Part shown: positions 19,301-37,149 of the stretch, piece after piece
Position numbering within the stretch: the stretch's first letter is position 1
Layout: each line of letters starts with the position of its first letter
Origin: a virus
Reading direction: 5' to 3' (one strand)
DNA length: 37,149 nucleotides
Virus record (IMG/VR): IMGVR_UViG_3300021962_000280
Span: 1-37,149 of that record
Notes under the pieces: model-generated
Databases searched by the model: none
Seen by the model: only the letters and a program-made list of their open reading frames with translations
Told to the model about the DNA's origin: nothing
Translations under genes and position numbers: made by a program

Positions 19301-19940
19301 CAGAACCTTCTACAAACGAATTTCAAAAAATAACACAACAACATTGGCGGCAGATGTAAATGACGAATCAACAACAATCACAGTTGCAGACGGATCAGTA
19401 TTATCAATACCAAGTGCATCAGCAAATCAACCAGGTGTTATAATGATAGACAAAGAAAGAATTGAATTTTTCACAAAAACAGGTAACACGTTAGGACAGA
19501 TCAGACGTGGTACTCTTGGAACAGGAATTAAGGCACACTCTTCTGGAGCAGACGTGGTAGACTTTGGAAGCAATCAAATTGTGCCTTATGCAGATACTAT
19601 CTATACCAAAACATATACAGGTGACGGTAGTACTGCTTCATTTGCCACAACATATGCACCGTCCTCGGCTAGTGAGTTAGACATTTTCATTGGTGGCCGA
19701 AGATTGATAGCAACTAGTGAGGACGGTAGCACTGTAAATTACATTGTGGACGGATCCACAGCATCAGTCACATTTACAGCGGTTCCTGCCTCAGGTACTC
19801 AAGTAAAAATACTACAAAAACGCGGATATGTGTGGTATGATGCAGGTGTATCCACAGCGGCAAACGGTAAAGGACTACAACGAGCAACAACTAACCAAGC
19901 TAAATTCATAGCAGGAGAACCAACAAATGCACCTGAATAA
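7323..19940 (+). CDS. Giant multidomain baseplate/tail structural protein (gp7 position)
   Basis: This is one uninterrupted 4205-codon frame with AGGA eight bases before the ATG. By order (25-6-this) it takes the place of T4 gp7 (about 1030 residues), but I cannot prove homology. Parts seen: an N-terminal region with [14 protein letters not shown] and [11 protein letters not shown] (about residues 120-165); a cupredoxin-like module with H229, C282, H285 and M288; a W1676-x5-Y-x-x-GD carbohydrate-binding-like motif; seven FG-GAP-like repeats (about 2105-2548) suggesting a beta-propeller; two GSGYTxxPTV repeats (about 3230-3290); a run of G(D/N)GSTxxF repeats (about 3445-4160); and an [11 protein letters not shown] motif near the end. 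The protein is probably an outer baseplate element or a baseplate-fibre network. The tetrapeptide DGST recurs about 15 times. The 3' end overlaps the next gene by 14 bases. Confidence 0.8.
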
Positions 19941-23535: not shown

Positions 23536-24966
23536 ATGCCAACTATTGTTAAAACTTTTACCTACACAGGCACTAAACAAGAGGTAGCAATACCAGCAGG
23601 CACAGTTTCTATGAACATCTCTATGTGGGGTGGTGGAGGCGGTGGCGGTGGTAGTGATTCTGCTGGTCCTGGAAGACCTGGAGCCGCAGGACATTATGTA
23701 ACAAAATCCTCATTTGATTTAAAACCATACATAGGACAAACTCTTACAGTCGCAGTGGGCGGCAGTGGAGCAGGTGGTTCATCAGGTGGTGGTGCCGCTG
23801 GTGGAAAAAATGGAAAGAGTTTAACAGGATATTCAGGAGGACGTGGAGGTAATTCAGGACCAACTCCTTTCTCAGGATCGGGCGGTGGAGGTGGTGGAGC
23901 CTCTGTTATACAGATCAACGGTGTTGATATCGCAATAGCAGGTGGCGGTGGCGGCGGTGCTGGAGACGGACAACATTCAGCGGGCACAGTGGGTATAAAC
24001 AGCAATTCAGCCACAGCAGGCTCCCCAAGCACACTGGGAGAAAACGGTGCTGATCACTCTGGAGACGGAGCAGGTGGAGGTGCAGGAGGCGGTGGAGCCA
24101 ATGGCGGACGAGGTGGCAACGGAGGCAGTGGAGACAATGGAGGCACAGGTGGTTATTCAGGATCAAATCTTGTACCAGCTGGTGGCACAGAGAACAACGG
24201 GTCAGGCAGAACACCAGGAGGAACAGGAGACGCTGTGTATCAATCTGGAGTTGCTGAAGGAGCAAGAGCCTCAACATCAGGCGGAAACGGTTTAATAGTA
24301 TTAACTTTTGATATTGGAGTTCAAGCAAAATATAAGGTAGCAGGTGATTGGAAAGATACTAATAATTTATATTATAAAGTATCAGGCGCATGGAAACAGA
24401 TTACAGCCGCTTATGTAAAAGTCGCAGGAGAATGGAAGGCTATGTTTAACTCAGGTATTGAATTCTTGTCAACATCAGCAGGATTTGGTGATACAGTAGG
24501 TGGGTCATCGTCAGGCACACCAGGAGGTGGCGGCGGATGTTTCCTTGCAGGCACACCGATCACAATGGCAGATGGTACAACCAAACCAGTTGAACTGGTA
24601 GATTTACGAGATGAAGTTGCTGTGGGTGGTTATGTATTTGCTACAGGTAAGTTTTTAATTGATAATCTTTATGATTACAAAGGTGTTAAAGTATCTGGAG
24701 AACACATGGTAAAAGAGGACGATGTTTGGATGCGAGTTAAAGACAGTGCTCACTCAGTATCGATGGGCGATGATGAACACGTGGTATATGTGTTTGGAAC
24801 AGAGTATAGAAGAATCATTATTAACGGTATAGAGTTCACTGACTACTTTGAGATCAGCGAAAAAGAAGAATTATTCAATCACGGTGATAAATTTTTTGGT
24901 ATTTGGCAGGATCATGATAGACAAATTCATGAAAAAAATGTTAAAATATTAAATGATGGAAAATAG
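23536..24966 (+). CDS. Glycine-rich adhesin with C-terminal Hint autoprocessing domain
   Basis: The protein has 476 residues. After an N-terminal beta segment (KTFTYTGTKQEVAIPAG) comes a glycine-rich region of about 200 residues with many GGGGG runs, like the polyglycine tip adhesins of T-even phages. Three YxKVxGxWK repeats follow (about 262-302). A linker ending in GGGGG leads to Cys335 and CFLAGTPITMADGTTKPVE, the first block of Hint (hedgehog/intein) domains. The block-B-like His is in SGEHMV (H390); further His are at 406 and 415. No C-terminal His-Asn junction or C-extein follows, so it looks like a hedgehog-type or bacterial-intein-like domain that cleaves at Cys335. AAGGGAGG eleven bases upstream is the ribosome-binding site. 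The 3' end overlaps the oxygenase gene by 14 bases. Confidence 0.8.
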   Translation: MPTIVKTFTYTGTKQEVAIPAGTVSMNISMWGGGGGGGGSDSAGPGRPGAAGHYVTKSSFDLKPYIGQTLTVAVGGSGAGGSSGGGAAGGKNGKSLTGYSGGRGGNSGPTPFSGSGGGGGGASVIQINGVDIAIAGGGGGGAGDGQHSAGTVGINSNSATAGSPSTLGENGADHSGDGAGGGAGGGGANGGRGGNGGSGDNGGTGGYSGSNLVPAGGTENNGSGRTPGGTGDAVYQSGVAEGARASTSGGNGLIVLTFDIGVQAKYKVAGDWKDTNNLYYKVSGAWKQITAAYVKVAGEWKAMFNSGIEFLSTSAGFGDTVGGSSSGTPGGGGGCFLAGTPITMADGTTKPVELVDLRDEVAVGGYVFATGKFLIDNLYDYKGVKVSGEHMVKEDDVWMRVKDSAHSVSMGDDEHVVYVFGTEYRRIIINGIEFTDYFEISEKEELFNHGDKFFGIWQDHDRQIHEKNVKILNDGK

Positions 24967-25630
24967 TTTTTATCAAGGAAAACAAGGCGAATGCTTCAAG
25001 TTATTAGAGCAAAACTTTGAAAAAATCAGACAAGAGTATATCAACAAACAGGACAAGATATTTTTAGATCCTGAAGATTTTTCTGACGGAGTGCGTGGAC
25101 TTGCTGACGACTTCTCAGACACAGATCGTCCGGGTGACTATGTCAAAGGAGATTGGAGAGCACTGGGCATAAGTTCTGGAGATCACGAGGGACAGTCCTA
25201 CGAGGATTTCCCTACTCTCTATGATATACTAAGACAATTCCCCTATAAGACCAATGTGGCATTTATGGTGGTAGGACCGAACACATCTATAGGCACTCAC
25301 AAAGATGACGAGGGCGGATGGAGATTTCAAATGTGTTTTGATGACGGCGGCGGAGATGACAGCGGAATGTACTATCAGGATTTAACGACCAAGGAAAAAA
25401 GATTACACACATTCAAGACAGGCAATCAGTTCGCTTTTAAACCAGGCGAGCAACCACACAACGGATTCAATCGCAATCCAGGCGAGAGATTGACGCTGTT
25501 GATCGATTTTTACAAAGAGTCTGAGTACACTCCAGAAGCATACGAATCCTATCTAAAGAACTATGACGAGAAGTTTGAAGGTCTAAAAGAGTTAGCGGAG
25601 TTGTATGAATCAAGAAAACAAAAAGCCTAA
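24953..25630 (+). CDS. Aspartyl/asparaginyl beta-hydroxylase-like 2OG-Fe(II) oxygenase
   Basis: The protein has 225 residues. TSIGTHKDDEGGWRFQMC supplies H116-x-D118. QPHNGFNRNPGERLTLLIDF supplies the distal His (H169) and the Arg that binds 2-oxoglutarate (R179). The order and spacing fit the aspartyl/asparaginyl hydroxylase group of cupin-fold oxygenases, which hydroxylate protein side chains or small molecules using 2-oxoglutarate and O2. No membrane segment or signal peptide is visible, so it acts in the cytoplasm of the infected cell. It overlaps the Hint adhesin gene before it and the dehydrogenase gene after it, so the three enzymes form one translational unit inside the fibre cluster. 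The substrate is unknown; a virion protein made next door is one option. Met24953 and Met24956 are both possible starts. Confidence 0.78.
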   Translation: MMENSFYQGKQGECFKLLEQNFEKIRQEYINKQDKIFLDPEDFSDGVRGLADDFSDTDRPGDYVKGDWRALGISSGDHEGQSYEDFPTLYDILRQFPYKTNVAFMVVGPNTSIGTHKDDEGGWRFQMCFDDGGGDDSGMYYQDLTTKEKRLHTFKTGNQFAFKPGEQPHNGFNRNPGERLTLLIDFYKESEYTPEAYESYLKNYDEKFEGLKELAELYESRKQKA

Positions 25631-26186
25631 GGCATTGATCACAGGACATACCCGCGGTATAGGACGAGCGATATATGATCGTCTCACCAGAGAAGGGTAT
25701 GAGTGTGTGGGATTGAGTAAGAGCACAGGACACGATGTATTGGATAGAGAGGACGAGATTGTGGAAAGAATACAGGACTTTGATTACGTGGTACTAAATG
25801 CATATGCTCAGCACTCGCAGTTGAATATGTTGAAAAAGATTGTGGATCGTTATTCCAACAAAGCACTTGGAGTGGCAGTGATAACCAGCACGTCAGGCAC
25901 ACCCGAGGGAGCAGACGAAGATATGCAGGACGAGGAGTATATAGAATACAAAAGAATAAAACGAGAATTGATACAATACATAGGACAGATACAACAGGCC
26001 ATTGTGGATAAAAAATTGAACATCTATGATGTGTGTCCAGACACAGTGTACACTGATATGACTGTGGGACTTTGGGAACAGTATCCTAAACTACAGCCGG
26101 CGGATGTGGCAGAGTGTGTGAGCCTGTGTTTCCACACAAAAGACTATAACATTAACAAGATTGTGATACAAAAAAATGCAGACTAG
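25605..26186 (+). CDS. Short-chain dehydrogenase/reductase-like protein
   Basis: The protein has 193 residues, shorter than the usual 240-260 of the family. It shows the Rossmann nucleotide motif TGHTRGIG at residues 13-20, the strand motif LNAYA near 64-68 in place of NNAG, a serine in VITSTSG (about 95-97), and a YxxxK dyad at Y112/K116 (YIEYK). CPDTVYTDM near 144-152 corresponds to the PGxxxTxM loop. It is therefore probably an active NAD(P)-dependent oxidoreductase; the substrate is unknown. The GGAG-led ATG lies inside the end of the oxygenase gene (26-base overlap), and the stop overlaps the next gene by 11 bases. The base composition looks richer in G+C than the neighbouring fibre genes, which hints at separate acquisition. 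Confidence 0.75.
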   Translation: MNQENKKPKALITGHTRGIGRAIYDRLTREGYECVGLSKSTGHDVLDREDEIVERIQDFDYVVLNAYAQHSQLNMLKKIVDRYSNKALGVAVITSTSGTPEGADEDMQDEEYIEYKRIKRELIQYIGQIQQAIVDKKLNIYDVCPDTVYTDMTVGLWEQYPKLQPADVAECVSLCFHTKDYNINKIVIQKNAD

Positions 26187-26658
26187 GCCCTGGAGCAGAG
26201 ACACGGACTACGACACACTGGTCAAATGGTGGAATCAGCACGAGTTTGGAGTGGTGCCTAGAGAAGTGCTACCACCAGATGGGATCATTGTGGAAGAAGC
26301 CGGTGTTCCCCTGTGTGCGGGCGGACTGTACATAGGCATGGGCACGGAGTTTGCTTTCATGGAGTGGGTAGTGGCAGACAAAGATGCCAACAAACGACAG
26401 TTGCACAGAGCTCTAAGAATGTGCGTGGATGCCCTATTTGAGTTGGCTCGCAGTAAAAATATGCAACTGGTATTCACAACTACATCAGAAGGTGCTCTGC
26501 AGAAGAGATACATCAAATATCACGGCATGGAATTAACAGAAAATCACGTCAAAACTTTTTTAAAAGACCTTACAAAAGACAAGCATTATGCGTCCAAAAG
26601 CCTGGATTGGATATCAGACGATACCCAGATTAGCATACAGCGAACAAATAATAAATAG
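26176..26658 (+). CDS. GNAT-like acetyltransferase family protein
   Basis: The protein has 160 residues. A central strand (FAFMEWVVADKD, about 59-70) is followed by a helix rich in Arg and Leu (ANKRQLHRALRMCVDALFEL), then QLVFTTTSEGALQKRYIKYHGMEL. This fits the late strand, helix and strand of the N-acetyltransferase fold. The canonical acetyl-CoA loop Q/RxxGxG/A is not clear, so catalytic activity is uncertain. It overlaps the dehydrogenase gene by 11 bases and ends the three-gene enzyme block. Like the dehydrogenase gene it is visibly richer in G+C than the fibre genes. It might acetylate an amino sugar or a protein amine in the same pathway. It could also be a non-catalytic relative. Confidence 0.55.
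   Translation: MQTRPWSRDTDYDTLVKWWNQHEFGVVPREVLPPDGIIVEEAGVPLCAGGLYIGMGTEFAFMEWVVADKDANKRQLHRALRMCVDALFELARSKNMQLVFTTTSEGALQKRYIKYHGMELTENHVKTFLKDLTKDKHYASKSLDWISDDTQISIQRTNNK
26650..26657 (+). promoter_or_regulatory. Possible late promoter (AATAAATA)
   Basis: The string has one mismatch to TATAAATA, spans the stop of the GNAT-like gene and lies 22 bases before the small gene at 26680. AAGGA at 26663-26667 would lie in the leader and could serve as a ribosome-binding site. This would restart late transcription after the enzyme block. Confidence 0.3.
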
Positions 26659-26679: not shown

Positions 26680-26856
26680 ATGGCAACAAAAGAGCAAGTT
26701 ACAGAGTATATAAATGCAACGTGGTCAGAGGTATGGACAGCAGACGACGAAGCACTTGTGGACAGAATGCTTGATCCTGCTCTAGCAGATATTTTAATTA
26801 AATTAGTAGGCAACGTAGAATTTTTAACAGAGGTTTCAGCAAACAAGAGCAATTAG
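26680..26856 (+). CDS. Small conserved-looking protein, 58 residues (tandem paralogue 1)
   Basis: This short reading frame runs from ATG 26680 to TAG 26854-26856 and fills an otherwise empty gap. Its product begins MATKEQVTEYINATW and contains LADILIKLVGNVEFLTEV. It is acidic and probably all helical, with no signal peptide or membrane segment. The gene just downstream encodes a related product (shared pattern YINA-x(n)-LIKLxGxVxxLxE), which argues that both are real. AAGGA lies 12 bases before the ATG. The function is unknown. The position directly before a fibre gene would fit a fibre-assembly chaperone or small virion protein, but that is only inference. Confidence 0.62.
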   Translation: MATKEQVTEYINATWSEVWTADDEALVDRMLDPALADILIKLVGNVEFLTEVSANKSN

Positions 26857-26857
26857 T

Positions 26858-27028
26858 ATGATTACACAACAAGAAACAGCAGACTATATTAATGCAAATA
26901 TAACCTCAGCATTGACAGTGGAAGAAATTAACACTGTTAAATCAATAATTAATAAAGACCTTGCTGTAGTACTAATCAAATTACTAGGTGATGTAAGTAT
27001 GTTAGTTGAAATTAGGGACGCAGAATAA
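26858..27028 (+). CDS. Small conserved-looking protein, 56 residues (tandem paralogue 2)
   Basis: The frame runs from ATG 26858, one base after the previous stop, to TAA 27026-27028, which overlaps the next ATG (TAATG). The product begins MITQQETADYINANI and contains LAVVLIKLLGDVSMLVEI. It aligns with the preceding 58-residue protein over the first helix (YINA) and the C-terminal helix (LIKLxGxVxxLxE). The tight coupling on both sides supports translation. It is predicted soluble and helical. The function is unknown; the tandem duplication suggests a hetero-oligomer or dosage effect. Confidence 0.62.
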   Translation: MITQQETADYINANITSALTVEEINTVKSIINKDLAVVLIKLLGDVSMLVEIRDAE

Positions 27029-28638
27029 TGGCATATTCAATTAATAACACAGCAGGCACACTTTTAAAAACTCTAGCAGATGGCACTATCGATACCACCA
27101 CGACAGATCTTGCTCTGTTTGGTAAAGGCTATGCAGGATTTGGTGAGCGACTGAATGAGAACCTCGTCAAATTATTAGAGAATTTCGCCAACACTTCCGC
27201 ACCCTCAAACAAACAAAAAGGACAACTTTGGTATGATACTTTAAACAATCAGATCAAGGTATGGAACGGCAACAAATTCAAACCAGTAGGATCATCCACT
27301 AACTCCACTGCATCGCCCACCAACGCCAACACAGGGGATTTTTGGTTCGACACTAACAACTCACAATTCTATGTGTACAATGGCACTGCCTGGACACTAA
27401 TTGGACCAACTACTGTTTCAGGATCTGGAGTCACACAAGTTTCGTCAGAAACAGTGGCGGACAGTGTAGGAGTAAACAAATCTATTCTAAAATTAATTAC
27501 TAATGATATCATTGTAGGCATTGTGTCCGCAGAAGAATTCACACCAGGCACAGCAATATCAGGATTTGCGACAGTCTACAAAGGTATCACTCTTTCTACA
27601 GCAATATCAGGAAACAAATTAACAGGCACAGCCACAGATGCAGATGCATTGGGCGGAGTCGCCGCGGCAAACTATCTAAGATCTAACGCCAATGATACCA
27701 CATCAGGCACTTTAGGAATTCTTGCTGATGGCGGATTAACTGTAGGTGTTGGATCAGATCTTACAGTATCAGTATCTGGTAGTGATGCTGTTATAAAAAA
27801 CAACACATTGAACGGTGACATAAAATTTGATGTAACTAATTCTTTAGGATCAACCACAGTTATGTATGTGGATGGTCAACTAAGAACCTGTAATATTACA
27901 GATTTAATTGTATCAGGTAATTTAACAGTTAATGGAACAACTACAACATTAAACACATCTAGTTTATCAGTAGAAGACAACATTATTGAGTTGAATAGAA
28001 ATGTATCTTCAGCGGCTGGAATGCCAAATTACACAGGACTAAAAGTTAATCGAGGATCAACATCATCTGTTACTGAGCAAGACCTATACTGGGTATGGGA
28101 CGAAACGTTTGCCGATGATGGTACAACTATATATGGTAACGCAGGAGGTGCTTGGACAGCGTTCAAATCAGGCGGCGGCGGTGAGATGTCAGCACCCACA
28201 CTAGTAGATATTCGAGCTAACATAGTACACGCAACATCAACAGCGGCACAATATGCCGATCTAGCAGAGAGATATGAGACAGATGTTGCTGTAGAGTGCG
28301 GTGATGTAGTAATATTAGGTGGAGATAAAGAGATTACAAAGTGTATGAAAGAGTTAGACGATGCTGTATTTGGAGTGGTTTCTGAAAATCCAGCGTTTTT
28401 AATGAATAAAGACGCAGGAAACGATGATTCACACCCTATGATAGCACTCAAAGGACGTGTAAGAGTTAAAGTAAAGGGCACAGGATCTGCAGGTGCTCGT
28501 ATCGTTTCTGCAGGTAACGGAGAAGCAAGAGTAGCAAATCTAGAGGAATGTACCGCTTTTAATACCCTAGGTAGGCTGTTGAAGGCTAAATACTCACAAC
28601 AAACAGAATTACACGAATGCGTGATAGGAGTAAAATAA
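27028..28638 (+). CDS. Tail fibre protein, paralogue C
   Basis: The protein has 536 residues. The N-terminus (LALFGKGYAGFGERLNEN, KLLENFANTSAPSNKQKGQL) matches paralogues A and B. A middle block (AISGFATVYKGITLSTAISG, then GTATDADALGGVAAANYLRS) is almost the same as in paralogue A. From about residue 406, AAQYADLAERYETD, GDVVILGGDKEIT and FGVVSENPAFLMN matches the C-terminal module of A, possibly a Peptidase_G2-like processing or chaperone domain, followed by its own C-terminal end with several cysteines. The ATG overlaps the stop of the preceding small gene, so translation is coupled. It is probably a trimeric fibre or baseplate spike involved in receptor contact. Confidence 0.72.
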   Translation: MAYSINNTAGTLLKTLADGTIDTTTTDLALFGKGYAGFGERLNENLVKLLENFANTSAPSNKQKGQLWYDTLNNQIKVWNGNKFKPVGSSTNSTASPTNANTGDFWFDTNNSQFYVYNGTAWTLIGPTTVSGSGVTQVSSETVADSVGVNKSILKLITNDIIVGIVSAEEFTPGTAISGFATVYKGITLSTAISGNKLTGTATDADALGGVAAANYLRSNANDTTSGTLGILADGGLTVGVGSDLTVSVSGSDAVIKNNTLNGDIKFDVTNSLGSTTVMYVDGQLRTCNITDLIVSGNLTVNGTTTTLNTSSLSVEDNIIELNRNVSSAAGMPNYTGLKVNRGSTSSVTEQDLYWVWDETFADDGTTIYGNAGGAWTAFKSGGGGEMSAPTLVDIRANIVHATSTAAQYADLAERYETDVAVECGDVVILGGDKEITKCMKELDDAVFGVVSENPAFLMNKDAGNDDSHPMIALKGRVRVKVKGTGSAGARIVSAGNGEARVANLEECTAFNTLGRLLKAKYSQQTELHECVIGVK

Positions 28639-28639
28639 T

Positions 28640-29617
28640 ATGGCATATGTAGCAGGTGATACAATTACAGCGTCACAATACAATATTTTTGTAAATAATT
28701 CATCAGCACCTTACGGATACAACCATTTCGCAGGTACAGGTTCAGGCAGTTATGGTCTGGGACAATCTACTTTAGCAACAGTAACAGGTGGAGCAAATAC
28801 AATCACAGCGGCACAGTTCAACAGTTTATTCACAGCAATGAACAACATTGCGAATCACACTAATGACACACTAACTTCTACAACAGCAGTTGCCACAGGC
28901 GACACCATTGCTATCAAAGCGGCTCTAGAAGCAGACCTTGCCACATTGGCGGCGTCGATAGCGGCAGGTTCACCAAATGCCACAGCATTAACTACATCAG
29001 GAGCACTAGTAACTTCTGACTCTTCAGCAAGATGGAACGGAAATCACACAGTAGAACAGTCAGTGACATTTTCCAGTGCTGACGATTTACGATATTTTTT
29101 CAATGCTGGAGGAAAAGTAAGAGTTCAACCTTCAAGAGTTGGAAATGGCGGAAACAGCGGAGCAACTTCTAAAGACACATCTTTCGATGAACTAATTTCA
29201 GCAGTAGGAATTTTTTCAATTGCGGCTCAGACCTCTTCAAGATCTGGTTCAGGAGAAACTGTGACCACAAACGGTTTAGCGAACGGTGCTTTGGATTTAG
29301 GCACAAGCTACACAACACTATTAAGATTAACTCAAGACTCTGGCACATACACTTCAAACTATGTCGATATTCAAGCAAAACTAGATGCGGCAGTGGGTAC
29401 TGCGGTCACACTAACTGTTAGATTTCAATTTGTAGATCAAGATGGCACTGACAGCATATATGGCGGTGGTAATAACCCTCCAGGCTTCGATGCTTATCTA
29501 GAGTTTGTTGGTCAAACACGAGTTGTTTTAACCACTCAATCACCAAACACAGCAGAAGGTTTGGCTTCTGTTGGTACTGTTTCTACAACAGCACAGGTGT
29601 CTAACACAACAGCATAA
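28640..29617 (+). CDS. Putative virion structural protein (fibre region)
   Basis: The protein has 325 residues and is rich in Ala, Thr, Ser and Gly with few charged residues, as in phage virion proteins. It begins VAGDTITASQYNIFVNNSSA, then GTGSGSYGLGQSTLATVTGG and NTITAAQFNSLFTAMNNIA, an N-terminal pattern I associate with structural proteins of marine T4-like phages. The second half (about 145-310) is a beta-rich domain (FQFVDQDGTDSIYGGGNNPP). The start is two bases after the stop of paralogue C. It is the last gene of the structural run; a palindrome and promoter follow. I cannot give a specific function. Confidence 0.62.
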   Translation: MAYVAGDTITASQYNIFVNNSSAPYGYNHFAGTGSGSYGLGQSTLATVTGGANTITAAQFNSLFTAMNNIANHTNDTLTSTTAVATGDTIAIKAALEADLATLAASIAAGSPNATALTTSGALVTSDSSARWNGNHTVEQSVTFSSADDLRYFFNAGGKVRVQPSRVGNGGNSGATSKDTSFDELISAVGIFSIAAQTSSRSGSGETVTTNGLANGALDLGTSYTTLLRLTQDSGTYTSNYVDIQAKLDAAVGTAVTLTVRFQFVDQDGTDSIYGGGNNPPGFDAYLEFVGQTRVVLTTQSPNTAEGLASVGTVSTTAQVSNTTA

Positions 29618-29665: not shown

Positions 29666-29980
29666 ATGGACCTTTCTGAACTTAAACAGCAATCAGATGC
29701 GAGCTTTGATATAGCAACTGCAAAAAAGAATGCTCTTGAAAAAGCATTCAGTCAGCAGATACTCGTATATAATCAATCAATATTTTTAGCCAATGCAGAA
29801 ACAATAAATCTTGTGGCTACTCTAAAACAAACTCATAAAACATTTGTTGTATTGGATTCAAATGATAATCCTTGTGTTATTGCTGAACCAGAAGAATTTT
29901 TAACAAAATTAATTGAAAAAAATCAGGAGGTCCTTAATCAGTATCATCATCTGTATGAAACATTTAGAAAGAAAATCTAA
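29666..29980 (+). CDS. Small hypothetical protein, first gene of the modification cluster
   Basis: The protein has 104 residues and is mostly helical, with a short strand section in the middle (TFVVLDSNDNPCVIAEPEEF). The N-terminal half is rich in Lys, Ala and Gln; the C-terminal helix is charged (KLIEKNQEVLNQYHHLYETF). I do not recognise a family. It has no signal peptide, membrane segment or metal motif. The ATG lies directly after the palindrome with no Shine-Dalgarno sequence, and its stop overlaps the next start (TAATG). Its leading position could suit a small regulator or partner protein of the enzymes downstream, which is inference only. Confidence 0.6.
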   Translation: MDLSELKQQSDASFDIATAKKNALEKAFSQQILVYNQSIFLANAETINLVATLKQTHKTFVVLDSNDNPCVIAEPEEFLTKLIEKNQEVLNQYHHLYETFRKKI

Positions 29981-30729
29981 TGAGCACTGGCATTTTGATT
30001 TATTGTTTTGACACTGATAAGATTCCGTATCATCCAACCACAAATTTTTGTATTTCACAAATTAAACGTTATTTAAATTTACCTGTCACAGTAATTACAA
30101 ACAAAAATACACAAAAAAATATTCAAGGAGCTGATTCGTTTGTTATTATAGACAACCAACTCAATAATCGAAGAACTTACAAAGGTGAAACAGTTGACTG
30201 GTATAATCTTGAAAGAGCGTGTGCTTATGACTATTCTCCTTATGATGTAACAATACTACTTGATTCGGATTATTTTGTGTACTCTCAACAATTAAAGCAA
30301 CTTGCAGATACTAGCTATGATTTTTTACTACACAATAAAGTGTATGATTTAACAGGAAGAAATTCTTTTAATTATAGAACTCGTTCGTTGATTCCGTTGG
30401 TGTGGGCAACTGTAGTAATTTTTAAAAAGAATGATCGAGTAAAGAGTATTTTTAGTTTAATTAAACATATTCAGAACAATTATCAACATTATTGCACTCT
30501 TTATAGAATAGATTTTCGTAATTTTAGGAACGATTATGCTTTTGCTATTGCTATGAATCAATTAAATGTTAACAATTTTATTCCTGTTAAGATGGCAATG
30601 TTACCCACAGATACAGATGTTGTAAAAATAGACAGCGACAGTGTTGTTTTTAAATATCAAAATAAAAAAAGCAGTATTACAAAACAGGATGTTCACGTGC
30701 TAAACAAGGAGATACCGTTCAATGTCTAA
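29980..30729 (+). CDS. Glycosyltransferase-like protein 1 (GT-A type, DSD motif)
   Basis: The protein has 249 residues. An N-terminal strand (GILIYCFDTD) and VTVITNKNT are followed by VTILLDSDYFVY, where D95-S-D97 is in the place of the DxD motif that binds the metal and nucleotide sugar in GT-A enzymes. Further strands (VWATVVIFKKND) and NDYAFAIAMNQL fit the acceptor side. It lacks a signal peptide or membrane helix, so it should act in the host cytoplasm. Donor and acceptor are unknown. It is coupled by TAATG to the preceding gene and overlaps the next by eight bases. Confidence 0.62.
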   Translation: MSTGILIYCFDTDKIPYHPTTNFCISQIKRYLNLPVTVITNKNTQKNIQGADSFVIIDNQLNNRRTYKGETVDWYNLERACAYDYSPYDVTILLDSDYFVYSQQLKQLADTSYDFLLHNKVYDLTGRNSFNYRTRSLIPLVWATVVIFKKNDRVKSIFSLIKHIQNNYQHYCTLYRIDFRNFRNDYAFAIAMNQLNVNNFIPVKMAMLPTDTDVVKIDSDSVVFKYQNKKSSITKQDVHVLNKEIPFNV

Positions 30730-31519
30730 AGGATTTCTATGGTTCGCACAGAATAATGACACAACAGATTATGCAGAATTAAGCATTGAATTGGCTCGTT
30801 CAATAAAAAAATATAATAAAGAAAATACAATCTGTGTCGTTACAGATTCTGATACAAAAATAAACAGCGAATACATAGATGTTGTAAAAGTATTAGGAGA
30901 AGACAACAGCAAAGATCAAAAAATAAAATTTTCTAATGAATATAAAGCATTTACACTTTCTCCGTTCACTCATACAATTAAACTAGAAGCAGATATGTTG
31001 TTTACATCATCAACAGATTGGTGGTGGAATTATCTATGTCAGCACAATATGGTATTTTCTATAGATTGTTTTAACTATTTAGACACTGTCGTAAAAGCAA
31101 CTCCTTATAGAAAACTATTTTATAAAAATTTACTATCAAACGTATATAATGGTTTGTTTTATTTTCGTAAGAGCGACATTTCTAAACATTTTTTTGATAT
31201 CTGTAAAACATTAACATTAAACTGGAGTAATGTTAAAGAAGAGTTTTTAAAAAATTGTCATGATGAGTACCCAACCACAGATGTGATATATGCTCTTGCA
31301 AAAAGAATAATAGATCCTACAAATCAAAATCAAATTAATTACCCATGGTTTAAATTTTTACACAATAAACCTGCTATAAACGAAACAGTAGATTCATTAA
31401 ATCATCTTTATCCTATCCAATTAAAAGACAGAATCTACTTAGGTGGACAAAGATTAAACAGACTGTGGCATTATTACGATAAAACAACAACGAAAATATT
31501 AAATGAACGAGCTTTTTAA
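30722..31519 (+). CDS. Glycosyltransferase-like protein 2 (GT-A type)
   Basis: The protein has 265 residues with the same general plan as its neighbour: GFLWFAQNND, an INSEYIDVVKVLG segment, then HTIKLEADMLF, where E89-A-D91 replaces a classical DxD. VYNGLFYFRKSD and EYPTTDVIYALA resemble acceptor-side elements of nucleotide-sugar transferases. The ribosome-binding site AAGGAG is ten bases before the ATG. The changed DxD may mean a different metal use or an inactive enzyme. It overlaps the preceding gene by 8 bases and the next by 17. It probably acts with the other two transferases. Confidence 0.58.
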   Translation: MSKGFLWFAQNNDTTDYAELSIELARSIKKYNKENTICVVTDSDTKINSEYIDVVKVLGEDNSKDQKIKFSNEYKAFTLSPFTHTIKLEADMLFTSSTDWWWNYLCQHNMVFSIDCFNYLDTVVKATPYRKLFYKNLLSNVYNGLFYFRKSDISKHFFDICKTLTLNWSNVKEEFLKNCHDEYPTTDVIYALAKRIIDPTNQNQINYPWFKFLHNKPAINETVDSLNHLYPIQLKDRIYLGGQRLNRLWHYYDKTTTKILNERAF

Positions 31520-31799
31520 AGACATAGTTATACCACAAACAAAAAAAAGACATTTTGTTGAATTTAAAGGAAAAAATATTGAAGTATCTCTACAGAAAAA
31601 ACTGGAGATTTTACGTAACGGAATTGAAAATTATATATTAGAAAACAATGAGTTTGTGTTAAAATCAAAAGTAAAAACACAGAGGACTTACGCTGAATTA
31701 AGGAAAGATAGCAAAGGTTATACTTTTTTAGACAGTGATCCTTATTGGCCAGCTGATATTATAGAGGGAGGTTATACGTGGCAAACACCGTCCGAGTAA
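31503..31799 (+). CDS. Small hypothetical protein between glycosyltransferases
   Basis: The protein has 98 residues, basic and Lys/Glu-rich in its first 70 (FVEFKGKNIEVSLQKKLEIL), then a distinct short tail rich in Asp and aromatics (DSDPYWPADIIEGGYTWQTP). I recognise no family. It overlaps the genes on both sides (17 and 22 bases), so it is translated as part of the cluster. No clear Shine-Dalgarno sequence is seen. It could be an accessory subunit. It could also, more speculatively, be a peptide substrate of the radical SAM enzymes, since it has a charged front part and an unusual tail; nothing seen proves this. Confidence 0.58.
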   Translation: MNELFKDIVIPQTKKRHFVEFKGKNIEVSLQKKLEILRNGIENYILENNEFVLKSKVKTQRTYAELRKDSKGYTFLDSDPYWPADIIEGGYTWQTPSE

Positions 31800-32677
31800 C
31801 AGATTTAGATTTTGTATTCATATCGTTTCGTGAGCCCAACAAGGAATACAATTATGCTGATCTACTGAATAAAGTGCCTTGGGCCAAACGTGTGGATGGT
31901 GTTGTGGGATTTGATTCAGCACACAAAGCCGCGGCTGAAATAGCAGAAACAGATTTCTTTATCAGCATAGACGGAGATAATATTTTAGATCCAACGTTTC
32001 TTTTACAAACATTAGATTTTTCTTTGACCAATCCTCAGGCAGTGCATAGATGGCGTGCTAGAAATTCCGTTAATGGATTGATATATGGTAATGGGGGTAT
32101 TGTGGGTTGGCCTCGTAAAACTTGTCTTGAAATGAAAACACACGAAAACGCAGACACAACAGAAAATGAGATAGACTTTTGTTGGGGAGTAGCACACGAG
32201 AATCTACACAATGTCTATTCAGACACAGTTATAAATCATTCTCCAGAACAGGCATTCGTTGCAGGATTCAGAGAAGGTGTAAAAATGAGTCTCGATCGTG
32301 GAAAGATAATACCTGCGGCTGAATTTGCAGAAAACATATATCTACCTAATCTTCGAGTATTGACCACGTGGATGAGTGTGGGTGCGGATGTTGAAAACGG
32401 AGAGTATGCTTTATTGGGTGCAAGAATGGGGTGTTGGTATACCACAGTGAAAGATATAGAACTAACCAGAGTTAGAGATTTAGATTTTATAAGTGAAATT
32501 TATTTTAACAGAGTAGCAAACATTCGAGAAACTATTGAAACTTATGGTAATTCTCTGCGTCAACGATTGGGCATACCTGTTGCTGACCTAGATGCAGATG
32601 AAAGTCGTTTCTTCAAGTTCTGTCAACCACAATGGATCAACAAGGGAGTGCAAGATCGTGAACAAAAGTCATTATAA
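31778..32677 (+). CDS. Glycosyltransferase-like protein 3 (DGD motif)
   Basis: The protein has 299 residues. It starts with GTG at 31778, supported by AGGGAGG about seven bases upstream. LDFVFISFREPN and RVDGVVGFDSAHKAAAEIA lead to TDFFISIDGDNILDPTF, where D65-G-D67 is a good DxD metal/nucleotide-sugar motif. GNGGIVGWPRKTCLEM and FCWGVAHENLHNVYSDTVIN are plausible acceptor-side elements. It has no membrane segment or signal peptide. Its last 20 bases overlap the first radical SAM gene, which links sugar transfer and radical chemistry in one operon. The family number is not assignable by eye. Confidence 0.65.
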   Translation: MANTVRVTDLDFVFISFREPNKEYNYADLLNKVPWAKRVDGVVGFDSAHKAAAEIAETDFFISIDGDNILDPTFLLQTLDFSLTNPQAVHRWRARNSVNGLIYGNGGIVGWPRKTCLEMKTHENADTTENEIDFCWGVAHENLHNVYSDTVINHSPEQAFVAGFREGVKMSLDRGKIIPAAEFAENIYLPNLRVLTTWMSVGADVENGEYALLGARMGCWYTTVKDIELTRVRDLDFISEIYFNRVANIRETIETYGNSLRQRLGIPVADLDADESRFFKFCQPQWINKGVQDREQKSL

Positions 32678-34025
32678 GACACAGGCTGATGAAGCAAAAG
32701 ACAAATTAGACTCAGTGTCTCCCACAATGTGTCTGGCCAAATGGAATCAGGTATCACTGCATCTGCCCACAGGACTGACAAACTCTTGCTATCATCCACC
32801 TCTGCACGAAATAGATGCAGAAGCATTGGAACACAATCCAGCCGCTCTGCACAATACTGATGAAAAAATACAGCAAAGGCAACAGATGATTGAGGGCAAA
32901 AGACCTCCGGGCTGTTCCTACTGCTGGCGTATGGAAGACACTGGAGAGATGTCAGATCGTCACTATCGGTCAGGTGAGCCTTGGGCTATGCAGGATTTTG
33001 ACACAATTCGTAACAATCCATTCAACCCAAAACATCCACCTCGTTATGTGGAAGTGAATTTCAACAATGCCTGCAACTTCAAATGCTCGTATTGTTCACC
33101 ACAGTTCTCCACTGCCTGGGCACAAGAGATAGATCGCTATGCTGAATATCCCACAGAACCACCTCACAACGCTCCTGAGCATTTTGAAGGCAGAAGAAGA
33201 CCTATACCAAACAGAGAACACAATCCCTATGTGGAAGCATTCTGGCGTTGGTGGCCAGAATTATACCCACACCTCAAACAGTTTCGTATGACCGGTGGCG
33301 AACCTATGATGGATAAAAATACCTATCGAGTATTTGATTATGTGCTGGGTAATCCTAAACAGGATCTACACCTAAATGTAACCAGTAATATGTGTCCACC
33401 AGACGACAAGTTAAAAAATCGTTATTTTGATATGGTCAAAAAGATGTGTATTGAAGAAAAGATAGAACATTTCATGCAGTTCGTATCAGTGGATTCACAC
33501 GGTTCACAGGCAGAATACATACGTCATGGATTAAATTACAACAAATTAATGGACAATGTAGACGAATTCTTGTCACGCATACCAGGTCGTAATTCTGTGT
33601 CCTTTATTATTACATACAATAATCTAAGTGTTACATCTTTAGAACCTTTATTGAAAGACATACAAGCATTGCGAAGCAAACACAGTCATACCTATCAGCG
33701 AGTATGGTTTGATATTCCTCTACTGCGTCAACCCGCTTGGCAACAGATAACACTGTTACCAGAAGCGTATCAGCAAATACATCGCAATAATATAGAATGG
33801 ATGTCTGCGAATTCTGGAGAGGACAATTACACTCAATTCAAAGACTTTGAGATTCAAAAAATGCAACGCAATCTTGCCTATTGGCAAAAAAATTACGCTG
33901 ACGATAAAACGCAAAAAAAGAACTTTTACGCATTTTTTAACGAACACGATCGCAGACGCGGAACAAGTTTCTTAAAAACGTTTCCAGAAATGGCAGAGTT
34001 TTGGGAAGAATGTAAAAACATATGA
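32658..34025 (+). CDS. Radical SAM protein 1 with N-terminal SPASM-like cysteine module
   Basis: From GTG 32658 the product has 455 residues. GGGAG nine bases upstream supports this start; an ATG at 32592 would add 22 residues (MQMKVVSSSSV...) that only mirror the overlapping upstream gene in another frame. The core has C139-x3-C143-x2-C146 (CNFKCSYC) for the SAM-bound [4Fe-4S] cluster and GGEP at 213-216. Before the core lie C25, C44, C86 and C89 (PGCSYCW), a likely auxiliary Fe-S site. The enzyme would split S-adenosylmethionine to a 5'-deoxyadenosyl radical and modify an unknown substrate. It is closely related in layout to the next protein (shared CLAKW/CGAKW, HPP, NPYVEAFxRWW). The stop overlaps the next ATG (ATGA). 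Confidence 0.88.
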   Translation: MNKSHYKTQADEAKDKLDSVSPTMCLAKWNQVSLHLPTGLTNSCYHPPLHEIDAEALEHNPAALHNTDEKIQQRQQMIEGKRPPGCSYCWRMEDTGEMSDRHYRSGEPWAMQDFDTIRNNPFNPKHPPRYVEVNFNNACNFKCSYCSPQFSTAWAQEIDRYAEYPTEPPHNAPEHFEGRRRPIPNREHNPYVEAFWRWWPELYPHLKQFRMTGGEPMMDKNTYRVFDYVLGNPKQDLHLNVTSNMCPPDDKLKNRYFDMVKKMCIEEKIEHFMQFVSVDSHGSQAEYIRHGLNYNKLMDNVDEFLSRIPGRNSVSFIITYNNLSVTSLEPLLKDIQALRSKHSHTYQRVWFDIPLLRQPAWQQITLLPEAYQQIHRNNIEWMSANSGEDNYTQFKDFEIQKMQRNLAYWQKNYADDKTQKKNFYAFFNEHDRRRGTSFLKTFPEMAEFWEECKNI

Positions 34026-35368
34026 AGGATATAGATTATAAAAAACAGATATTAGATTCTTTATCTCCTTCTTTCTGTGGAGCCAAATGGTACAATGCCA
34101 CTATATGGTTAGGGTCGGGTATGACCACGAGCTGTCATCATCCCCCAGCTCACAAGATAGATATAGACAAAGTTCAACTCAATCCAAAACTGCTACATAA
34201 CACCCCTGAGAAGAAACACGACAGAGCATTAATGGTATCTGGAGAGAGACCGAAGGGTTGCGAATACTGTTGGAAGATTGAAGATATGGGTAGAGAGGCA
34301 GTTAGTGATAGAGTTTATAAGAGTAAAATTTACAAAACAGAGGATTTACATCTTGCTAAGAATACTCCCATAACAGAAGATGTGAATTTAAAGACACTAG
34401 AAATTGCGTTTGACAGGACCTGCAACTTCGCTTGTTCGTATTGCAATCCTGCATTCTCAACCACGTGGGTGAGGGATATCAAACAGAAGGGTCCATACCA
34501 GAATTTGATATCAGATGGTAGAAACCATTTCACTCACCCACACGATGGAGCACAGTTATACAAACAGGATGAAACCAATCCCTACGTGGAAGCATTTTTC
34601 CGATGGTGGGAGTCGGATCTACATAATACTTTAGAGGAATTGAGGATCACAGGAGGAGAACCTATGATGAGTCCGCACCTATGGAGATTGTTGGACTGGT
34701 TTGAGACAGAAAAACATCGAGCGAATCCCTCAATGCGATTAGCAATTAATTCTAATCTTGTGCCTAAACCAGAACTGTTCTCTAAATTTATTGAGAAATG
34801 TAAAAACGTGCCCAACCTACACATATACACCTCCAACGAGGCCACGTTTGACCAGTCAGACTACATTCGTGACGGTATGCGTTTTTCAGAATGGTATATG
34901 AACTTTGCGAATGTGATCAATCAATTGAAACCTGCAGGTGTCCATAATATGTGTACAGTGAATGCACTGTGTTTGGAATCATTGCCAGAATTCTTAGACA
35001 AGATAGTGGAGAACAAAATTAATTCTAAAAGGGTGTACGGCGTGGATGTCAATTTTACACTTAACATTCTACGTTTTCCGTCATTTCAATCACCACTGGT
35101 ACTGCCAGATGAGTTGAGAACGAAATTTAAAGACAATCTTAACAACTGGTTAGATCGACAGATAGAACATCTAGAGCCTATGGAAGTGGCACACACTCAG
35201 CGATTGATAGATTATTTAGATGTGGTAAAAACACCGCATTCTGAAGCATTTGATTTACCAAGATTGAGATCAGACTTCAAGAATTTTTATAAACAATACG
35301 ATGAGAGACGAGGCAAAGACTTTGCTAAAACTTTCCCAACAATAGGAGCGTGGTATAGTGGCTTATGA
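34022..35368 (+). CDS. Radical SAM protein 2 with N-terminal SPASM-like cysteine module
   Basis: The protein has 448 residues. CNFACSYC gives C134, C138 and C141; GGEP is at 211-214. The N-terminal cysteines C19, C38, C80 and C83 have the same spacing as in protein 1 (x18, x41, x2). Shared motifs with protein 1 include CHHPPAHKID, GCEYCWKIED, NPYVEAFFRWW, RITGGEPMM and a C-terminal DERRGKDFAKTFP. It is therefore a tandem paralogue, diverged enough to act on a different step or partner. The start overlaps the previous stop by four bases, typical of translational coupling. Confidence 0.88.
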   Translation: MKDIDYKKQILDSLSPSFCGAKWYNATIWLGSGMTTSCHHPPAHKIDIDKVQLNPKLLHNTPEKKHDRALMVSGERPKGCEYCWKIEDMGREAVSDRVYKSKIYKTEDLHLAKNTPITEDVNLKTLEIAFDRTCNFACSYCNPAFSTTWVRDIKQKGPYQNLISDGRNHFTHPHDGAQLYKQDETNPYVEAFFRWWESDLHNTLEELRITGGEPMMSPHLWRLLDWFETEKHRANPSMRLAINSNLVPKPELFSKFIEKCKNVPNLHIYTSNEATFDQSDYIRDGMRFSEWYMNFANVINQLKPAGVHNMCTVNALCLESLPEFLDKIVENKINSKRVYGVDVNFTLNILRFPSFQSPLVLPDELRTKFKDNLNNWLDRQIEHLEPMEVAHTQRLIDYLDVVKTPHSEAFDLPRLRSDFKNFYKQYDERRGKDFAKTFPTIGAWYSGL

Positions 35369-36650
35369 ATACGGGGCTAAAGAGCCTGAAAAATTAAAGA
35401 TAAAAGATATGACTCCTCGCGAAAAGGAGTTGTTGATAGACAGCGAATCATTTTGTATGTTGCCGTGGATGCACCTCCACGCATATCCAGACGGTCGGGC
35501 ATATCCTTGTTGTTTTGCATTTGATCCCTATCCTGTAGGAGACTTAAACAAACAGAGTTTGAAAGAAGTATTCAACGGCGATAAGATGAAGCAGATACGG
35601 GTAAGAATGATGAACAATCAAAAATCACGCGAATGTATAAAATGTTATGATCAGGAAAAGGCTGGATTTTTTTCACTGCGTTTGAGTTCTAACAAACATT
35701 TTGGTCATAACATTCCTTTAGTGGAAAATACAACACCTGATGGGGAAGCAGATTTTATGATCAAATATTGGGACATACGATTTTCAAATCTATGTAATAT
35801 GGCCTGCCGTAGTTGCGGAACCTGGTTCTCTTCCAATTGGTACGAAGATCATAAAAAACTAACCGGCCAGCCACCTCCACACGCTAAGATAATGAAGGTA
35901 GGGAGAAGCACCAACGATATGTGGGAGCAGATGTTGGAATCATTTGATCATGCTGAGCAATTTTATTTTGCTGGAGGCGAACCTATCATAATGGAAGAAC
36001 ATTATAGGATTTTGAAAGAACTTGATCGACGTAAAATGTATCACGTTCGACTGATTTATAACACTAATTTCAGTAAAACAACATTCAAAGATATTGATGT
36101 ATTTGAGTTATGGAATAAATTTGATTCGGTATCAGTCGGCGCAAGTTTAGACGCAGAAGGTGCACGTGGAGAATTGATGCGTAAAGGCACGGTATGGGAA
36201 GAAACGATTGCAAATAGAAAGAGAATGATGGAAGTTTGTCCACAAGTGGATTTCTATATATCATCAACTGTTGGACTTATAAACAGTTTGCACGTCACAG
36301 ATTTTCACAGAAGTTGGGTGGAACAGGGTCTGATCAAACCACAGGATTTTAATTTCAATCTGTTGCAACATCCTACGTGGCAAAGAATGGACATACTTCC
36401 TCCTGAACACAAGCAGAGGGTAAAGGAAAAATATGATGAGCATATCAAATGGTTGAAAAGCCAAGATTCTTTGACACGAGCAACTAAAGGATACGAATCA
36501 GCACTAAATTGGATGTTCCAAACCAATAATCAACAACATCTAGAGTTGTTTTTCACACAGACACGGAAGTACGATGCCATTCGCAATGAAAACATATTGG
36601 AAGTATTTCCAGAATGGAAAGAACTGTTTGACAAATATGAAAAGAATTAA
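35358..36650 (+). CDS. Radical SAM protein 3 with N-terminal SPASM-like domain
   Basis: The protein has 430 residues. It starts with GTG at 35358, supported by AGGAG nine bases upstream, and overlaps the previous gene by 11 bases. CNMACRSCG gives C146, C150 and C153; FAGGEPI gives GGEP at 206-209. The N-terminus has the familiar SPASM-type look: C33 in FCMLPWMHLHAYPDG, then AYPCC (C51, C52), GDLNKQSLKEVFNGDKM, and C93/C96 in ECIKCYDQEKAG. In classical SPASM enzymes this domain lies after the radical core; here it lies before. It belongs to a second sub-type with protein 4 (FCMxPW, CC, CGxxxSSxW). The substrate is unknown. Confidence 0.88.
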   Translation: MAYEYGAKEPEKLKIKDMTPREKELLIDSESFCMLPWMHLHAYPDGRAYPCCFAFDPYPVGDLNKQSLKEVFNGDKMKQIRVRMMNNQKSRECIKCYDQEKAGFFSLRLSSNKHFGHNIPLVENTTPDGEADFMIKYWDIRFSNLCNMACRSCGTWFSSNWYEDHKKLTGQPPPHAKIMKVGRSTNDMWEQMLESFDHAEQFYFAGGEPIIMEEHYRILKELDRRKMYHVRLIYNTNFSKTTFKDIDVFELWNKFDSVSVGASLDAEGARGELMRKGTVWEETIANRKRMMEVCPQVDFYISSTVGLINSLHVTDFHRSWVEQGLIKPQDFNFNLLQHPTWQRMDILPPEHKQRVKEKYDEHIKWLKSQDSLTRATKGYESALNWMFQTNNQQHLELFFTQTRKYDAIRNENILEVFPEWKELFDKYEKN

Positions 36651-37149
36651 ACCCAAAGAAGGCAACCAAACATTCTGTATGGCACCGTGGACACACACTT
36701 ATTTGTCTCCACAGACCGAGAGGAGGATGTGCTGTGCTTCGAGAGAACCTGCCCAAAGTTTTAAGCAATACATTGACAGAGAGGGAGATCTAAAGCAGTA
36801 TCAGCCAGAAACACTGGAACAGCACTGGAACAACGAGCATATGAAGAGCGTGAGACGAAGGATGATGGCAGGAGAAACGCTTCCAGAATGTCAGGTATGT
36901 AATGATAAACTGCTCAACACGGATGTATATAGAAGTTATTTTAACAATCTGTTCGGTCACAAAATAGATGAAGCATACGAAAGCACAGATGACACAGGCC
37001 ACACAGAAATGAAAACTGTGAGCTTTGATTATCGTTTTAATAATCTCTGTAATTTTAAATGTCGCCAATGCGGCGATATGTTATCCAGCAGTTGGGAAGC
37101 AGAGCAAAGAAATAACGATATGTGGTCACCAGAGCGTCAACCTTGGATG
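36637..37149 (+). CDS. Radical SAM protein 4 with N-terminal SPASM-like domain (3' end outside window)
   Basis: The frame is open from ATG 36637 to the window end (171 codons, no stop), so the gene continues beyond. It overlaps the previous gene by 14 bases. FCMAPWTHTYLSPQTERRMC gives C14 and C32/C33; CQVCND gives C85/C88; CNFKCRQCG gives C138, C142 and C145. The layout and the FCMAPW and CGDMLSSSW motifs match protein 3. The GGEP and C-terminal parts are not in view. It shows that the radical SAM series has at least four members and may continue downstream. No strong Shine-Dalgarno sequence is seen, so it probably relies on coupling to the preceding gene. Confidence 0.82.
   Translation, partial: MKRIKPKEGNQTFCMAPWTHTYLSPQTERRMCCASREPAQSFKQYIDREGDLKQYQPETLEQHWNNEHMKSVRRRMMAGETLPECQVCNDKLLNTDVYRSYFNNLFGHKIDEAYESTDDTGHTEMKTVSFDYRFNNLCNFKCRQCGDMLSSSWEAEQRNNDMWSPERQPWM

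Follow-up and report, generated by a model that had tools for sequence, protein, structure and literature searches.

A fibre-linked cassette of twitch radical SAM enzymes and glycosyltransferase-like proteins in uncultured aquatic phages, with a possible role in virion decoration

Gene content and conservation of the cassette

The window analyzed here is the complete IMG/VR record IMGVR_UViG_3300021962_000280, a linear viral fragment of 37149 bases that ends in a cassette of nine open reading frames (ORFs; 29666-37149), all on the + strand, encoding glycosyltransferase (GT)-like proteins and radical S-adenosylmethionine (SAM) enzymes. The cassette consists of A (29666..29980), a conserved small protein of 104 aa; the GT-like proteins B (29980..30729) and C (30722..31519); D (31503..31799), a small protein of 98 aa between C and E; E (31778..32677), a protein with a GT-A fold; and the radical SAM proteins R1 (32592..34025), R2 (34022..35368), R3 (35358..36650) and R4 (36574..37149), the last incomplete at the record's end. 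Neighboring genes overlap by 1 to ~22 bp after start correction. R1 more likely begins with the GTG at 32658 than at 32592, and reading of the translation points to the ATG at 36637 as the likely start of R4. The ORF list bore out the first-pass annotation, which had described nine overlapping genes without a gap, four of them radical SAM genes and the last cut by the edge. A hydropathy scan detected no transmembrane segments in the A to R4 proteins of the window and a few marginal segments in relatives. Immediately upstream of the cassette lies F10 (28640..29617, + strand), a fibre-like protein, which is preceded by a fibre-like structural protein (27028..28638, + strand) whose C-terminal domain weakly resembles Peptidase_G2, a domain of intramolecular-chaperone autocleavage.

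An IMG/VR scan with R2 yielded 454 relatives, and the best 80 of the 454 were taken further; 49 loci were non-redundant (R2 less than 95% identical) and had enough flank. R1, R2, R4, C and E were present in all 49 loci, F10, R3 and a fifth radical SAM gene, R5, in 48, B, the fibre gene and a carbamoyltransferase gene in 47, and A in 46. Most loci carried, at the position of D, a small ORF from one of two families, and A and D were the sole small conserved proteins of the cassette across these loci. The order fibre-F10-A-B-C-D-E-R1-R2-R3-(R4-R5 or R5-R4)-carbamoyltransferase was found in nearly all of them, and this synteny ruled out a chance arrangement of the gene row. The first-pass annotation had counted at least four radical SAM enzymes and had asked whether the cluster is kept together in any relative; dozens of relatives keep it, with R5 located past the window edge.

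The nearest relative of the window (L005; R2 89% identical) continues beyond that edge with a full R4 (L005:12607-13920), R5, an SGNH-like protein, an FkbM methyltransferase and the carbamoyltransferase, and further on with a cupin-like protein, an NAD-epimerase, a DegT aminotransferase and a second E-like protein. The SGNH-like protein was recognized by eye from its motif, without a Pfam match, and the cupin-like protein was likewise assigned by eye. Genes for the SGNH-like, FkbM methyltransferase, epimerase and DegT proteins were present in many relatives. Among the phages collected in INPHARED, a nucleotide search returned no close phage, a protein search with R2 and R3 reached just 22.6% identity, in Vibrio phages K566 and K567, and a protein search with F10, E and C returned no matches.

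Radical SAM paralogues in phages and Bdellovibrionota

R1 to R4 did not fall into unrelated metabolic families; all four belong to one NCBIfam family, NF033640 (N_Twi_rSAM), in which an N-terminal twitch domain is followed by a radical SAM domain. The model has a length of 398 positions and a curated cut-off of 170 bits, which was exceeded by R1 (334 bits, E 9.6e-100), R2 (295 bits, E 7.2e-88) and R3 (403 bits, E 1.8e-120; SPASM E 2.5e-13). R4 scored 142 bits (E 3.1e-41), below the cut-off, because the record edge leaves only 149 of the 398 positions (1-149). Longer viral records contained 5-13 N_Twi_rSAM genes each. Some phages (L023:11332-13029, L026, L027, L034 and others) carry an N-terminal extension of ~130 aa on R3.

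The CxxxCxxC and GGEP motifs reported by the first-pass annotation were real and were retained in 391/391 viral relatives, and all four N-terminal twitch cysteines were retained in 388/391. In trees, R1, R2, R3, R4 and R5 formed separate groups, each wholly or nearly wholly on one side of a branch, and R1 to R5 are on this evidence five old paralogue groups. Identity between the two main phage types was 61% for R2 and 56% for R1, compared to 27% for F10 and 24% for A. The intact motifs, the five separate groups and this lower divergence mark R1 to R5 as five maintained, active-looking enzymes; decayed or redundant copies were ruled out by the motifs and the separate groups.

An AlphaFold2 model of R2 (predicted local distance difference test, pLDDT, 84) had as its best structural neighbor SkfB, a maturase of ribosomally synthesized and post-translationally modified peptides (RiPPs), with Z 12.4 and a root-mean-square deviation (rmsd) of 3.7 over 218 residues. 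The small-molecule enzymes MoaA (Z 11.7), DesII (11.6) and BlsE (11.4) were also recovered. A sequence search of solved structures gave nothing for R2 beyond marginal matches to MoaA.

Among GTDB genomes, relatives were found in metagenome-assembled genomes (MAGs) of Bdellovibrionota, besides contigs that look like misbinned phage. The latter (L085-L088), assigned to MAGs of Rickettsiales, Pelagibacter, Verrucomicrobia and Betaproteobacteria, contain the phage cassette together with fibre genes and were therefore discarded as evidence of a host. The Bdellovibrionota genomes had 3-37 N_Twi_rSAM matches each, some in tandem, and in one class 30 of 99 genomes had members past the NF033640 cut-off. 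On one Bacteriovoracaceae contig (L108), orthologues of R1 to R5 all lie side by side, adjoining obgE, rpmA and rplU (called by eye from translations). R1 and R2 are preceded there by a small protein that contains Cys and whose N terminus resembles a signal peptide. E-like proteins adjoin radical SAM genes on two further contigs (L100, L101). Each Bacteriovoracaceae orthologue branches beside its respective viral group, which indicates that the five paralogues predate the phage-bacterium split of these genes.

Two other Bdellovibrionota regions were recorded. In Bdellovibrionia, L104-L105 (G026 C1:738000-776000) holds more than 12 N_Twi_rSAM genes in ~30 kb alongside an amidinotransferase-like protein; many of the ORFs there have no Pfam match. 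A B12-binding radical SAM protein (L109:10578-12098) lies among N_Twi_rSAM genes and a carbamoyltransferase gene in a Bdellovibrionota MAG.

The glycosyltransferase-like core and the fibre gene

The AlphaFold2 model of E (pLDDT 90.5) had a GT-A fold. Foldseek matched it to K4 chondroitin polymerase (K4CP; E 2e-4) and also to the SunS/ThuS S-glycosyltransferases and the PBCV-1 capsid glycosyltransferase, and VIA matched it to B4GALNT1 (Z 10.1, rmsd 3.0, 142 residues). Since the nucleotidyltransferases IspD and MobA have the same fold (Z 8-9), sugar transfer by E is a prediction. The alignment of E showed invariant DGDN, YGNGG and HE motifs, with DGDN unchanged across 18 aligned relatives. B carries DSD and C carries EAD, and family alignments showed that the B family keeps D-x-D and the C family keeps E-x-D. 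Both matched phrog_1903, a family with no assigned function, weakly (B, E 1.7e-4; C, E 1.6e-8), and on the motif and this match B and C are putative GTs. The DxD-like motifs of the first-pass annotation were therefore real and conserved, and its call of three GT-A-like proteins holds for E by structural model, although none of the three is a clear Pfam member: E scored 15.3 bits against the GT2 family (PF00535), under the gathering cut-off of 23.3. Pfam and PHROG profile searches gave no assignable family for A or D; as a guess, A could be a fibre chaperone.

A reverse search was performed with E, and 36 loci longer than 18 kb were counted from the best 80 matches listed; the fractions are not population estimates. 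Among these matches, C and E were present in 36 loci, A and B in 35, F10 in 34, R1 in 21 and the carbamoyltransferase in 10. Several phages (for example L126-L131, L133, L135, L136, L190) have the order fibre-F10-A-B-C-x-E-E, after which the coding strand changes, and the available stretch contains no radical SAM gene. F10-A-B-C-x-E is the core, and the radical SAM and carbamoyltransferase genes are an extension of it: because the core occurs without radical SAM genes, its proper partner is the fibre gene with which the structural operon ends. F10 adjoins A-B-C in 48/49 loci and, among the matches listed, in 34/36 reverse-search loci. It has 0 Cys and ~26% Ser+Thr, members of its family usually have 0-1 Cys, and F10 is the likeliest candidate for the acceptor.

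The left part of the window is a tailed-phage structural operon that encodes a baseplate hub/lysozyme and baseplate wedge proteins, several proteins of fibre-like type and one protein of 4205 aa. The gp6-like wedge is closest to those of PA5oct-, Atu_ph07- and SCTP-2-type jumbo myoviruses (36-41% identity). The 4205-aa ORF (7323-19940) has an FG-GAP repeat match and a weak match to a carbohydrate-binding module, and is possibly a giant adhesin or a VrlC-like baseplate protein. Between the fibre genes (24953-26658) lie genes for an Asp/Asn beta-hydroxylase-like protein (PF05118, E 2.1e-6), for a protein resembling short-chain dehydrogenases and for one resembling acetyltransferases, the last called by eye with no Pfam match; this trio is kept together in close relatives and forms a second small modification-like set. 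Tandem proteins of 58 and 56 aa from one family (26680-27028) precede the last long fibre gene and are repeated in relatives.

Proposed function and comparison with known systems

The reading that we favor, with confidence a little short of even, is that the cassette is a virion-fibre decoration module in which the GTs glycosylate F10, and either the glycan or the site that bears it is then modified by the radical SAM enzymes and the carbamoyltransferase. The cassette would be expressed late, and the soluble transferases B, C and E would assemble a short glycan on F10, the presumed acceptor, with A and D acting as small helpers. R1 to R5 might then perform five different radical SAM transformations, their chemistry and order being conjectural, most likely on the sugar (a nucleotide sugar or the attached glycan) or on the sugar-carrying residue. 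The carbamoyltransferase would finish the decoration, joined in many relatives by the SGNH-like, FkbM methyltransferase, epimerase and DegT enzymes. A surface decorated in this way may protect the phage against recognition by host or competitor, or may tune receptor binding.

This reading is supported by the near-invariant gene order, the GT core tied to the fibre gene, the intact catalytic residues and the separate R1 to R5 groups. It also fits the matches of the E model to protein- and capsid-glycosylating enzymes (SunS/ThuS and the PBCV-1 capsid GT) and the lower divergence of the radical SAM sets, compared to F10, between phage types (R2 61% vs 27%). The absence of transmembrane segments in the window cassette, the downstream carbamoyltransferase, FkbM, epimerase and DegT genes, and the absence of two polysaccharide families further support it. 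The initiating sugar-phosphate transferase (PF02397) and the flippase (PF01943), the two families searched for, were found in 0 of 16 viral records, which are fragmentary, and a complete O-antigen route is disfavored for this reason.

Several points weigh against the favored reading. Modification of the virion, at F10 or at another protein, is a prediction. Adjacency to a fibre gene is typical of host-recognition islands too, and for the GTs of such islands a role in altering the O-chain of the host has been proposed (PMC7029224). The R2 fold lies as close to peptide maturases (SkfB, anSME, SuiB) as to the small-molecule enzymes MoaA, DesII and BlsE, and because both kinds of enzyme fit the model, the fold cannot select a substrate. 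The Bacteriovoracaceae set of five radical SAM genes stands without GT or fibre genes nearby, so a fibre glycan is not necessarily its substrate. The phage-encoded glycan or peptide pathway of the first-pass annotation stands in part: the cluster is a conserved unit that closes the structural operon, and it most plausibly builds or edits a glycan on a virion protein, with sugar, peptide and host surface all candidate targets at the level of sequence.

SPASM/twitch radical SAM enzymes are frequently peptide maturases, and an alternative that we regard as unlikely, yet the most serious of the three, is a protein-maturation array instead of a glycan pathway. The radical SAM enzymes would act directly on side chains of amino acids in the fibre or in another small protein, for instance by epimerization, crosslinking or C-methylation, and glycosylation by B, C and E would be a separate process. 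SkfB as the top fold neighbor of R2 (Z 12.4) and the small Cys-containing, signal-peptide-like protein ahead of R1-R2 in Bacteriovoracaceae, with no GT, agree with it. The non-peptide enzymes MoaA, DesII and BlsE nearly match the SkfB score, however, the cassette contains no obvious precursor peptide, the 0-1 Cys usual in F10 argues against Cys-dependent thioether chemistry on that protein, and the radical SAM genes accompany carbamoyl- and sugar-type genes.

Carbamoyltransferase, DegT and epimerase genes occur also in surface-polysaccharide loci. The cluster could make or edit an O-chain or capsule sugar during infection and thereby exclude competing phages, a role put forward for GTs of pelagimyophage host recognition clusters; we consider this rather improbable here. 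The same setting of tail-fibre region, GTs and radical SAM cassettes has been described (PMC7029224), and a phage could still edit a glycan made by its host. The lack of PF02397 and PF01943 in the 16 related viral records, the predicted solubility of the window cassette proteins and the position of the core in the structural operon beside F10 argue against this explanation. Auxiliary metabolism, in which the enzymes supply the infected cell with a cofactor or a free small molecule and the fibre neighborhood is incidental, would be in keeping with the bacterial contig on which the five orthologues lie without GTs or fibres and with the MoaA-like fold of R2. It leaves the near-invariant linkage of F10-A-B-C-E over divergent phages unexplained, the block contains no known metabolic pathway gene set, and we judge it very improbable.

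Beyond fibre decoration in general, we propose tentatively, and with clearly less assurance, that a fixed assembly line of five radical SAM enzymes, common to aquatic phages and Bdellovibrionota, makes an undescribed fibre decoration, either a carbamoylated glycan edited by radical chemistry or an altered residue. If so, a large group of uncultured aquatic phages would possess an unusually elaborate fibre-modification pathway, with five radical enzymes kept despite large divergence. What decorates the virion, and why, would become a testable question and the enzymes a source of new radical SAM chemistry, for which the relatives that lack radical SAM genes and the bacterial five-gene set are natural controls.

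The open-access papers searched on phage twitch radical SAM enzymes, phage glycosylation and Bdellovibrio radical SAM enzymes did not contain this cassette of five paralogues. They likewise did not show that it is built onto a GT core linked to a fibre gene, or that bacteria have a five-gene equivalent. The first-pass remark that four such similar enzymes in tandem are required by no known pathway nevertheless overstated the novelty, given the up to 37 family members per Bdellovibrionota genome and two earlier phage reports. The first of these, from 2017 (PMC5332604), gives 12 radical SAM genes for the T4-like marine genome TARA_ERS488813_N000010, and the presence of many such genes in a single T4-like marine phage is already published; they are given there among Fe-S cluster genes, and the passages on them mention neither paralogue groups nor a link to GTs nor a function. 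Pelagimyophages likewise have a host recognition cluster, an island in the structural region with tail fibres, GTs and radical SAM cassettes (PMC7029224). That cluster is described as hypervariable and non-syntenic, whereas the cassette described here has a near-constant order and lies in phages whose wedge is closest to the PA5oct/Atu_ph07/SCTP-2-type jumbo phages.

In the PBCV-1 capsid and the glycoproteins of jumbo phage XacN1 (PMC5852040), structural proteins are the proposed or demonstrated substrates of virus-encoded GTs, and the PBCV-1 capsid GT and E have the GT-A fold in common. The texts consulted on these systems mention no radical SAM tailoring set, and glycosylation in the present phages is a prediction from gene content. 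The Bdellovibrionota N_Twi_rSAM islands resemble the cassette in the adjacent R1 to R5 orthologues (L108) and in the E-like proteins beside radical SAM genes (L100, L101), and differ from it in lying on cellular contigs without a fibre module. R1 to R3 share with the NF033640 family the N-terminal twitch, CxxxCxxC and GGEP, at 295-403 bits vs the cut-off of 170. The family model names no reaction; in these phages, five fixed paralogues travel with GTs and a fibre gene.

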